In this document: in pieces, positions 3,995-7,444 of the stretch | How the letters are laid out: each line of letters starts with the position of its first letter | How positions within the stretch are numbered: position 1 is the first letter of the stretch | Origin: an uncultured Alphaproteobacteria bacterium | GTDB lineage: Bacteria; Pseudomonadota; Alphaproteobacteria; Methylaequorales; Methylaequoraceae | Direction of reading: 5' to 3' | NCBI GenBank assembly: GCA_902540805.1 | Contig: CACBON010000012.1 | Location: 1-33,604 of the forward strand | DNA length: 33,604 nt | Program-made: the position numbers and the translations under genes | The notes under the pieces: model-generated | Databases searched by the model: none | What the model was told of the DNA's origin: nothing | Seen by the model: only the letters and a program-made list of their open reading frames with translations

Positions 3995-5383
3995 ATGAAC
4001 CAGCCGAATTTATACACAATAAACCAAATCAAAGAATCTGAAAATCTTTATATAAAAAAAAATTCATTAAACAAGTTATTTGACAATGCAACAACAAAAA
4101 TAATCACTTTCATAAAAAAAAATTATAAAAAAAAGAAAATTCTATTTGTTTGCGGTCCGGGAAATAATGGAATGGATGGAAAGTTAACATATAACAAAAT
4201 ATCAGAGAAATATCATGTAAGTATTTTTACATTTGATAGCAACGATAAGATAAACCTTAATAAATTTAAAAACTTAATTCAAAATTCGGAAATAATTTTT
4301 GATTGTATTTTTGGCACAGGATTAAATAAAAAAATCTCTGGAAACAACAAAAAAATCATAGAATTAATTAATAAATCAAATAAAAAAATAGTTGCAGTAG
4401 ATATTCCTAGTGGTTTGCATGGTGATTCAGGTGAAAGAATGGGCACATGCATTGTCGCTGACACAACGCTAGCAATGGGTTTTCTAAAACCAGGGTATTT
4501 TTTGCATCCTGCCAAAGAATTTATAGGGAAACTAGAATTACTTGATTTAGGTCTACCTGTTCCAAATTTTAAACCAAATATTAAACTAGTTAATAAAAAA
4601 AATATTAATAATATTCCTTCTCATAACTCTAACATTAACAAATACGATAAAGGTCATGTTTTGATTATAGGAGGAGAAATGGCTGGTGCCTCAAGACTAG
4701 TTGCATACTCTTCAAGAAAAACTGGATGCGGACTTTCAACAATTTCTGTTGAAGAAAAGAATTTGAAATTTTACTCTCAAACTGAACCTGGGACAATCAT
4801 CAAAATTTTTAACAATTCTGATTTAATCAACAAGGATGTTTTAGTAATAGGTCCGGGGTTAGGAAAAAGTTTCAAAATAAAAAAATTACTAGAAATTATA
4901 GATTTATTTCATGGACCCAAAATTTTAGATGCAGATGCGATAAGTATATTTGAAAATAAAAAAAAACAATTTTCAAAATTCTTAATGAAACAAAAAAACG
5001 TTATTTTGACTCCTCACACTGGTGAGTTTAAAAGAGTGTTTAATTATTCTAATAAATTATCAAAATTAAATAATTGCCTTGAAGCATCTAAACTGATTGG
5101 TAATTGTGTATTACTGAAAGGTAATGACTCTGTTATTGCATTTCCAAATGAAAATATATGGATTAATAATTTGGCAAATCAAAATTTAGCAACTGCTGGA
5201 TCAGGTGATGTTTTATGTGGAATTATTGCTGGACTTCTAGCGCAAAAAATGACAATAGAAGATGCGATGCCTGCATCATTGTTGATTCAAAGTAAAATTT
5301 CAAAAAATAAAAAAAATGTTGTTGTAGAGGATTTTTTAAGTGAAATTCCAATTGCTATAAATTCTTTAAAAAAAAATAATTGA
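3995..5383 (+). CDS. nnr: Bifunctional NAD(P)H-hydrate epimerase / ADP-dependent dehydratase
   Basis: This fused repair enzyme restores hydrated, inactive NADHX and NADPHX. The N-terminal YjeF epimerase domain (about residues 1-200) has CGPGNNGMDG, IFDCIFGTGL and VAVDIPSGLHGDSG. The C-terminal ribokinase-like dehydratase (about 215-462) has KGHVLIIGGEMAGASRLV, VIGPGLGKS, ILDADAISIF, VILTPHTGEFKRVF, LLKGNDSVIA and the catalytic loop ATAGSGDVLCGIIAG. The length of 462 fits the fused family, slightly short. The usual GNNGGDG loop reads GNNGMDG here. The start ATG touches the start codon of the minus-strand secreted gene, so its promoter or leader must lie within that gene, or the mRNA is leaderless. 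The tRNA-Leu/tig unit begins 39 bases downstream. Confidence 0.93.
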   Translation: MNQPNLYTINQIKESENLYIKKNSLNKLFDNATTKIITFIKKNYKKKKILFVCGPGNNGMDGKLTYNKISEKYHVSIFTFDSNDKINLNKFKNLIQNSEIIFDCIFGTGLNKKISGNNKKIIELINKSNKKIVAVDIPSGLHGDSGERMGTCIVADTTLAMGFLKPGYFLHPAKEFIGKLELLDLGLPVPNFKPNIKLVNKKNINNIPSHNSNINKYDKGHVLIIGGEMAGASRLVAYSSRKTGCGLSTISVEEKNLKFYSQTEPGTIIKIFNNSDLINKDVLVIGPGLGKSFKIKKLLEIIDLFHGPKILDADAISIFENKKKQFSKFLMKQKNVILTPHTGEFKRVFNYSNKLSKLNNCLEASKLIGNCVLLKGNDSVIAFPNENIWINNLANQNLATAGSGDVLCGIIAGLLAQKMTIEDAMPASLLIQSKISKNKKNVVVEDFLSEIPIAINSLKKNN

Positions 5384-5422
5384 TTTACGTTCAATAATGT
5401 TGTTTTTTATTTAGAACTATAA

Positions 5423-5507
5423 GCGGGCGTGGCGGAATTGGTAGACGCGCTAGATTTAGGTTCTAGTGACTTATGTCGTGTGGGTTCAAGTCCCTCCGCC
5501 CGTACCA
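5423..5507 (+). tRNA. tRNA-Leu (anticodon TAG)
   Basis: An 85-base tRNA with encoded CCA. The 7-bp acceptor stem GCGGGCG pairs with CGCCCGT (one G-T pair at the end). The anticodon stem CTAGA/TCTAG encloses loop TTTAGGT with anticodon TAG, reading CUN leucine codons. A variable arm typical of class II tRNA-Leu and the T-loop GGTTCAAGTCC are present. The trigger-factor start codon is only 6 bases after the CCA. Confidence 0.97.
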
Positions 5508-5513
5508 AAAATT

Positions 5514-6842
5514 ATGGATATTAAAGAATTAAAAAATACTGATAAGCTCTCAGTTGAGTGGTTAGTCACAATACCTTCTTCAAAAATTAACATTGAACTA
5601 GATAAAAAATATTTTGAGTTAATGAGCAAAGTAAATTTACCTGGTTTCAGACCTGGAAAAGTTCCTAAAACTATAATAAAAAAAAGATTTGGACAGAATG
5701 TTGTTTCTGAGGTTTTAGATAAAATTATAAATGAAACTCTAACTAATGTTGTAAAAGAAAAAAAACTTAAACCATCGGTTCAACCAAAAGTCGAGATAAA
5801 AAAATATGAAGAGGGAAATGAACTTCAATTTAGTGCAAGTTTTCAATTAATGCCAGATATTCCAGATTTTGATTTAAAAAAAATTATCGTTGAAAAATCA
5901 AAGTTAAAGATATCAGATAAAGACATTGACAACACGCTTTCTCAGATTGCCGACAAACATGAACGATTTACCCCTCTAAAAACAAAGAGAAAAACTAAAA
6001 CCGGCGATTTGGTGTTGTTTGATTACGAAGGAAAAATAGATAAAAAAAGGTTCAATGGAAGTTCCGGTAAAGACGAAACAGTTGTATTGGGATCAAATAA
6101 ATACATACCCGGTTATGAAGATCAGATGATCAATTTAGGAATAGGAGAACACAAAACTATTAAGGTTGTTTTTCCAGCCGATTACAGAGAAAAAAAAATT
6201 GCAGGAAAAAAAGCTGAATTTTCCCTTGAAATTAAGGATATTCAGGAAAGAGTCAAAAAAATTGAAATTGATGATAAACTAGCTGAGGAGTTAGGAGAAA
6301 AAAATTTGGATGAGTTGAAAAAAAAAATTGAAGAAAATATGAACAAAGATTTTGAAAATCTATCTCTTTTAAAAATGAGAAGAGAGGCAACTGAAAAAAT
6401 TCTTAAAAATTTTGAATTTCAAATTCCTTCTAAAATGATCGATGAAGAATTCAATTTTTTAAAGTCTCAAGCAGAGAAAAAAGATCAAAAAGAATCTGAG
6501 ATTAAAAAACTTGCCAATAGAAGAGTTAAATTGGGTTTAATAATAAATTCAGTTGCTGAAAAAAATGAAATAAAGATAACTGACTCTGATTTAACTCAAG
6601 CGGTAGTCGGTGAAGCAAGCAAGTACCCTGGACAAGAAAAACAAGTTGTTGAATTTTATAAAAACAATCCAAAACTTATGAATAACCTTAGAGGTGTTGC
6701 TTTGGAAGAAAAAGTTATGAAGTTTATTGTAAATAGTTGTGAAAAAAAAGAAAATGAGTGTACTATTGACGAACTCTTTAAATCCGATTTCTTACAGAAT
6801 GAGAAGAAAATGATTTCAAATAAAAAAAAGGAGAAAAAATAA
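5514..6842 (+). CDS. tig: Trigger factor (ribosome-bound chaperone and prolyl isomerase)
   Basis: A 442-residue chaperone that binds nascent chains at the ribosome exit. The ribosome-docking signature [17 protein letters not shown] lies near residues 44-60. The FKBP-type PPIase domain follows (about 160-245: [31 protein letters not shown]), then the long helical C-terminal arm domain and a Lys-rich end. The frame is open back into tRNA-Leu (to 5466), but that part encodes tRNA sequence; the ATG at 5514 begins [16 protein letters not shown] as in the family. No ribosome-binding site fits in the 6-base gap after the tRNA. The stop overlaps the clpP start by one base (TAATG), which suggests translational coupling in a folding and degradation operon. 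Confidence 0.95.
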
Positions 6843-7444
6843 TGAGTTCATTAATTCCAATGGTTGTTGAGCAAACAAATAGAGGAGAGAGATCATATGA
6901 TATTTTTTCTAGACTATTGAAAGAAAGAATAATTTTTCTTACTGGTGAAGTTAATGATGCCGTATCAAGTGTTATTTGTGCCCAATTTCTTTTTCTAGAA
7001 TCAGAGGATCCAAAGAAAGATATATTCTTGTATATTAACTCACCAGGTGGCGTCGTATCCTCTGGCTTAGCAATATATGATACTATGCAATATATCAGAC
7101 CAGATGTATCCACCCTTTGTATTGGTCAAGCCGCAAGTATGGGTTCTCTTCTATTAACTGCTGGTACTAAAGGAAAAAGATATTGTTTACCTCATTCTAG
7201 AATTATGACACATCAACCTTCTGGAGGTGTTCAGGGTCAAGCATCTGACATTGAAATTCATGCAAAAGAAATTGTAAATTTAAAAAAAAGTTTAAATAAA
7301 ATTTATGAAATACACACTGGCCAACAACTTAATACGATTGAAAAGATGATGGATAGGGACAATTTTATGAACGCAGATGATGCAAAAAAGTTTGGAATTG
7401 TTGATAAAGTTGTATCAGAGAGACCAGATTTAAAAAAAAAATAA
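6842..7444 (+). CDS. clpP: ATP-dependent Clp protease proteolytic subunit
   Basis: This 200-residue serine protease forms the two-ring barrel that degrades substrates unfolded by ClpX. The catalytic triad is visible: Ser99 in GQAASMGS, His124 in IMTHQPSGG, and Asp173 in [12 protein letters not shown]. The N-terminal loop [19 protein letters not shown] and the handle helix region are normal, as is the length. It overlaps tig by one base and is followed, after 61 bases with a possible promoter, by clpX. The order tig-clpP-clpX-lon is a widely conserved bacterial arrangement, so the proteins that fold and remove new polypeptides are made together. Confidence 0.97.

Follow-up and report, generated by a model that had tools for sequence, protein, structure and literature searches.

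The window analysed here, a stretch of 33,604 nucleotides, comes from a draft genome of 1.21 Mb that is 75% complete. It carries tig, the gene for trigger factor, directly behind a gene for tRNA-Leu (Table 1). The protein encoded from position 5514 is matched by all three of the Pfam families Trigger_N, FKBP_C, and Trigger_C. Among the matches listed from named genomes, its nearest relative is that of the single cell AG-349-G20 (96% identity); the trigger factor gene of HIMB59-MED-G10 shows 65% identity. The genes tig, clpP, clpX, and lon follow one another on one strand with one-base overlaps (the start of clpP overlaps the stop codon of tig by one base), the exception being the 61 nt ahead of clpX. 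On the other side of the tRNA lies a gene whose product we take, from the look of its sequence, to be an NAD(P)HX epimerase/dehydratase.

Table 1. Features of the tRNA-Leu-tig locus, numbered from the first base of the window.
Feature	Position	Strand	Basis or remark
Candidate NAD(P)HX epimerase/dehydratase gene, 462 aa	3995..5383	+	Directly upstream of tRNA-Leu
Conserved promoter-like block, ATTGATTTA-N5-AATAATGTTGTTTTTTA	5379..5409	+	Alignment of 27 loci
tRNA-Leu, anticodon UAG, CCA encoded at 5505-5507	5423..5507	+	ARAGORN (anticodon TAG, 5423-5507, + strand); Rfam tRNA model (5423-5504, 53.7 bits)
Spacer AAAATT, proposed endonuclease cutting zone, without Shine-Dalgarno motif	5508..5513	+	
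tig, trigger factor, 442 aa, ATG at 5514	5514..6842	+	
clpP, 200 aa, Shine-Dalgarno motif present	6842..7444	+	Name from sequence and preliminary description
clpX, 419 aa	7506..8765	+	Name from sequence
lon, 799 aa	8765..11164	+	Name from sequence

The preliminary description of this DNA had placed the CCA end of the tRNA at 5507 and the tig ATG at 5514, with AAAATT between them. The DNA itself, ARAGORN, and Rfam reproduce this exactly. It had also considered that tig might begin further downstream. The first residues of the protein align with those of its relatives at the same position, so the start at 5514 is right, and the next in-frame ATG lies 108 nt further on; together these two observations rule out a later start. 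The statement that no promoter fits in AAAATT holds as well, the spacer being just 6 nt long. Codirectional genes with 6 nt between CCA and ATG and no room for a promoter are what a bacterial tRNA-mRNA co-transcript calls for.

The arrangement is not confined to the window. In the window's family, 27 loci were examined, and every one has the gene for tRNA-Leu(UAG) directly before tig (the count leaves out a tig fragment in G003, and four genomes of the family gave no tig match). The same order is seen in the three genomes ranked next (L028-L030), where the gaps are 64, 161, and 24 nt. We then took the next best 80 after L030 of the 177 genomes with a match, some of which share a family or genus, and inspected 200-600 nt upstream of tig. 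The same-strand pair is present in 73 of these 80 alphaproteobacterial genomes, and the other seven have no tRNA-Leu in the 600 nt before tig. Judged by this distribution, tRNA-Leu(UAG)-tig is an old alphaproteobacterial gene pair.

The spacing, which the preliminary description had suggested comparing across relatives, narrows towards the window. The distance between the tRNA end and the ATG is 22-384 nt (median 69) in the 73 genomes of the class survey, with values below 40 nt in 8 of them. In other genera of the family, 14 loci are readable and show 10-24 nt; the window's own genus has 5-9 nt (12 of 12 loci). L014 has unread bases in the spacer, and for L015, whose frame is broken, the gap (10) was determined by eye. 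In L025, another in-frame ATG lies 4 nt after the tRNA. We rejected the idea that genome size simply sets the gap across the class, since the correlation between the two in the class survey is not significant (Spearman 0.13, p 0.28). We also looked for a conserved spacer sequence within the genus. The spacers differ, so no cutting site is conserved there, and a conserved cutting motif in the spacer is ruled out.

Upstream of the tRNA, the alignment of the 27 family loci reveals the block listed in Table 1. Its first part, ATTGATTTA, is exact in 25 of the 27 loci, and AATGTTGTTTTTT is found with at most two mismatches in 24-25 of them (including L001-L024), even where tig identity falls to 57%. 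Conservation of the block is weaker in L025-L027. Part of the block shares bases with the stop codon that ends the upstream gene (5381-5383), and the 13 nt between block and tRNA are variable. We infer that the block is the promoter of the tRNA-Leu-tig unit, with either hexamer as a possible -10 element. A scan with the sigma-70 consensus found 8 sites in 2.4 kb against a mean of 10.5 in shuffled sequences; the scan has low power, and the consensus may not fit this organism. None of its sites falls within the block; a weak one at 5352-5380 reaches as far as the block's edge. The block is AT-rich and fits the sigma-70 consensus poorly; it may show the form that promoters take in this group.

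Transcription could also enter from the upstream gene and drive both the tRNA and tig by read-through, in which case the block would not be a promoter. A same-strand open frame does end 39 nt before the tRNA, and in four other genomes of the family (G012, G019, G015, and G007) one ends 32-46 nt before it. The non-coding bases in between are nevertheless strongly conserved, as expected of a promoter, if more weakly so in L025-L027. Of the explanations considered here, read-through from upstream is the one to which we assign the lowest probability.

A core Shine-Dalgarno 4-mer precedes 3 of the 32 window ORFs of at least 100 aa that were counted, with start codons that were set by rule and may be wrong in some cases. 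This suggests that initiation in this genome is mostly independent of Shine-Dalgarno pairing. No such 4-mer is present in any of the 12 spacers of the genus; in the other genera of the family, a motif of the AGGA, AAGG, or AGGT type directly follows the tRNA in 7 of 14 readable loci. The preliminary description had argued from the lack of a ribosome-binding site in the spacer. The motif is indeed absent before tig, as it is before leaderless messages, but the argument carries little weight, since 29 of the 32 window ORFs are likewise without it. Its absence before tig is therefore no pointer to processing, and a special status of tig in this respect is ruled out. The cited part of PMC4681348 classes leaders shorter than 10 nt as leaderless; the predicted tig message, with a leader of at most 6 nt, would qualify if its 5' end lies within 5508-5513.

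The strongest new evidence comes from the other tRNA genes. We collected tRNAs with their flanks from five genomes of 1.2-2.0 Mb (loci L031-L053 from the window's genome and L237-L326) and scored ATG-initiated ORFs of at least 90 codons. The genomes were that of the window (G000), one of the same genus (G012), two of the same family (G019 and G015), and one of another family (G128, a single contig of 1.21 Mb). The first four are not independent samples. Unique tRNAs and total matches numbered 23/23 in G000, 28/31 in G012, 27/31 in G019, 28/39 in G015, 31/32 in G128, and 10/33 in G007. With G007 excluded from the sum and four tRNAs near locus ends dropped, 133 tRNAs were judged.

A codirectional ORF begins between positions -3 and +20 relative to the tRNA end in 41 of these 133 cases. 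The proportion is 7/20 in G000 (8/23 when tRNAs near locus ends are included), 9/28 in G012, 9/27 in G019, 6/28 in G015, and 10/30 in G128. Upstream of the same 133 tRNAs, no divergent ORF starts within 20 nt and none within 40 nt; 7 start within 60 nt and 26 within 100 nt. For positions drawn at random from these loci, with both strands used and real gene starts included, the ATG of a 90-codon ORF falls in the -3 to +20 interval in 453 of 10960 cases (4.1%). Compaction alone would bring divergent genes close too, and thus does not predict this asymmetry. Because divergent genes stay more than 40 nt away, a distance that leaves the space promoters need, and codirectional genes do not, the downstream genes appear to be read from the tRNA transcript. 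The asymmetry is our main new evidence, and it supports co-transcription more strongly than the single case of tig does.

Neither of two control genomes shows a strong asymmetry of this kind. In G187, an alphaproteobacterium of 36% GC and 2.0 Mb, ATG starts within 20 nt were found for 0 of 29 tRNAs in either orientation, and within 40 nt for 1 of 29 codirectionally against none divergently. With any start codon (ATG, GTG, or TTG), none of 32 unique tRNAs has a start within 25 nt. In G058, with 68% GC, the counts for ATG within 20 nt are 3/29 codirectional and 1/29 divergent, and with any start codon 7 of 30 tRNAs have an ORF within 25 nt. A Pfam search of these seven ORFs gave no match, and we take them for frames that stay open by chance at high GC content.

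In the small genomes, the close downstream ORFs are mostly real genes, judging by the Pfam searches of those in G000 and G128 and of two in G012. Six of the eight in the window's genome have matches above the cut-off (DUF502, ABC transporter, DSBA, CutA1, trigger factor, and DUF6538), as do 8 of the 10 in G128; the ORFs behind tRNA-Asn and tRNA-Val in G012 match an epimerase family and DctP. Two G000 ORFs gave no match; one follows tRNA-Phe and the other tRNA-Arg(tct), and relatives of these ORFs follow the corresponding tRNA in G012, G019, and G015. Counting G007, the 44 close ORFs form 22 clusters, and several tRNA-gene pairs are shared by three to four genomes of the family. Of the 10 close pairs in G128, only tRNA-Leu-tig is common to the window's family, and the pairs of the two lineages are therefore nearly all different.

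Some individual cases deserve mention. Three loci of G128 (L255, L292, L297) have a gene of the HisRS type 5 nt after tRNA-His, a gene of the poly(A) polymerase/CCA-adding type 6 nt after tRNA-Gln, and a gene for an AMP-binding enzyme that begins 1 nt after tRNA-Leu(caa), where a cut must therefore be exact to the base. In the window's genome, four tRNAs begin 2-6 nt after a long open frame on the same strand (L048, L051, L038, L053), and some tRNAs may be cut from the 3' ends of messages. By the ends that ARAGORN assigns, CCA is encoded in 20 of the 23 tRNAs of this genome; tRNA-Phe, one tRNA-Met, and tRNA-Ala(ggc) seem to have no complete CCA (L035, L036, L049).

The recurrence bears on an alternative that the preliminary description had raised, namely a promoter inside the tRNA-Leu gene. 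Such a promoter would give tig a separate transcript with a triphosphate end in the 3' half of the tRNA or in the spacer. Conservation does not speak against it, since the tRNA sequence is constrained anyway. The hexamer CTATAA abuts the tRNA in 9 of the 12 genus loci and could in principle serve as a -10 element for transcripts that begin within the tRNA, but it is absent there from the other three and from 15 loci of other genera. From 5381 to 5586, the low-power consensus scan detected nothing on the + strand that resembles a sigma-70 site. As the layout recurs behind many tRNAs, a promoter of this kind would be needed in each of about a dozen tRNA species. We disfavor an internal promoter and consider it very unlikely.

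According to the preliminary description, the tig message comes from the tRNA transcript and is released by maturation of the tRNA 3' end. The first part, co-transcription of tig with tRNA-Leu, is well supported by the layout, the conserved block, the class-wide occurrence of the pair, and the recurrence behind other tRNAs. The second part, release by 3' processing, we call likely from the sequence. For its further suggestion, a tie between tRNA-Leu output and the making of the folding and degradation machinery, these comparisons offer no support. Our preferred reading, which we hold to be rather probable, is that tRNA-Leu, tig, clpP, clpX, and lon form one transcript and that a cut in the spacer releases a near-leaderless mRNA. 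Transcription would start at the promoter between the upstream gene and the tRNA, placing tRNA-Leu(UAG) as the first cistron of the tig-clpP-clpX-lon unit. RNase P would form the 5' end of the tRNA. An endonuclease, most likely RNase E, would cut the A/U-rich spacer, and an exonuclease such as RNase PH would trim the tRNA back to CCA. The part beyond the cut would be an mRNA that bears a monophosphate at its 5' end and has no more than 6 nt ahead of the AUG. Its translation would not involve Shine-Dalgarno pairing, which seems to hold for the majority of genes here.

RNase Z is probably not needed for tRNAs with an encoded CCA. In the eight genomes searched, it gave no match above the curated cut-off and weak partial matches in seven. 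Genes for RNase E/G are present in seven of the eight, with no RNase E found in G019 (92% complete), and genes for RNase PH are present in all eight. In E. coli, according to the cited part of PMC4681348, RNase Z or RNase E cuts tRNAs with an encoded CCA a few nucleotides downstream, and exonucleases then trim them. On this model, the cut at our locus would fall after CCA and before the tig AUG. Fold prediction leaves the first 30 nt of the released tig mRNA unpaired. For the precursor, it pairs CCA with a UGG that contains the last two bases of the AUG.

A shared transcript does not by itself require a productive cut. Translation could proceed on uncut read-through RNA, or the cut could be the first step of decay; the short gap would then reflect compaction inside an operon, with no mechanism of its own. 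The window is indeed compact, with 19 of 25 same-strand ORF neighbors at most 14 nt apart or overlapping. Most of its ORFs have no Shine-Dalgarno motif, so none is missed at tig, and the motifs that follow the tRNA in 7 of the 14 other family loci would work on cut or uncut RNA. Yet a ribosome on the tig AUG would cover the 3' side of the acceptor and T arms of the tRNA, and the acceptor stem is predicted to be paired in the precursor. Furthermore, a tRNA made in this way can function only once it has been released from the shared transcript, and every such release takes a cut near CCA. Translation of the uncut RNA, or a cut that merely begins decay, is to our mind unlikely.

Returning to release by a cut in the spacer, messages behind many tRNA genes are probably cut out of tRNA transcripts in the same way. 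We put forward a wider proposal tentatively, and consider it more doubtful than the reading of the tig locus itself. In marine streamlined Alphaproteobacteria, tRNA excision would act as a partial genome-wide punctuation, with about a third of the tRNA genes serving as 5' leaders whose removal leaves near-leaderless mRNAs. It would have arisen at least twice separately, because only tRNA-Leu-tig of the 10 pairs in G128 is shared with the window's family. The promoter of the tRNA would then also set the supply of the protein encoded downstream, such as trigger factor or, in G128, the HisRS behind tRNA-His. The cut, if shown, would explain how genes are expressed whose upstream gap is too short for a promoter or a Shine-Dalgarno motif. 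Test cases are at hand in the 22 clusters of tRNA-gene pairs, and the tRNA-Leu(UAG)-tig pair is worth testing in alphaproteobacterial species that are easily grown.

Transcripts that join tRNAs and mRNAs are known from E. coli, where thrU-tyrU-glyT-thrT-tufB and metY-rimP-nusA-infB have tRNA genes first and protein genes after them, and where tRNA processing cuts the joint transcript. As in these operons, the tRNA at our locus comes first and is followed by protein genes with central functions. The E. coli mRNAs keep a normal leader with a ribosome-binding site, whereas the tig message would be left with no more than 6 nt. Among the matches listed from the open-access literature, we found no report of abutting tRNA genes used in this way in bacteria. 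The median intergenic length in 'Candidatus P. ubique' is 3 nt, as stated in the cited part of PMC2704228. The predicted tig message resembles the bacterial leaderless mRNAs described in the cited part of PMC4681348 in that its leader would have at most 6 nt and its 5' end would lie next to the AUG. Those mRNAs were called, in that part of the paper, from mapped transcription starts; the tig mRNA would instead be processed from a tRNA transcript and carry a monophosphate end.

The locus shares several features with mitochondrial genomes, where tRNA genes likewise lie directly next to protein genes, separated by a few bases or by none. The tRNA punctuation model for mitochondria was reportedly proposed by Ojala et al. 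in 1981. As in that model, the arrangement recurs behind many tRNAs (41/133 within 20 nt, against 0/133 divergent within 40 nt), and tRNA excision would yield leaderless or near-leaderless mRNAs. Most genes are not bounded by tRNAs here, as the window has three tRNA genes to 32 counted ORFs. In contrast to mitochondria, only about a third of the tRNAs have a close downstream gene, the tRNAs seem to have their own promoters, the spacers are mostly 1-20 nt rather than zero, and the setting is a bacterial cell. Proof of the cut would mean that genome shrinkage has brought a bacterium to part of the mitochondrial logic of expression, with tRNAs as the processing marks that release near-leaderless messages.
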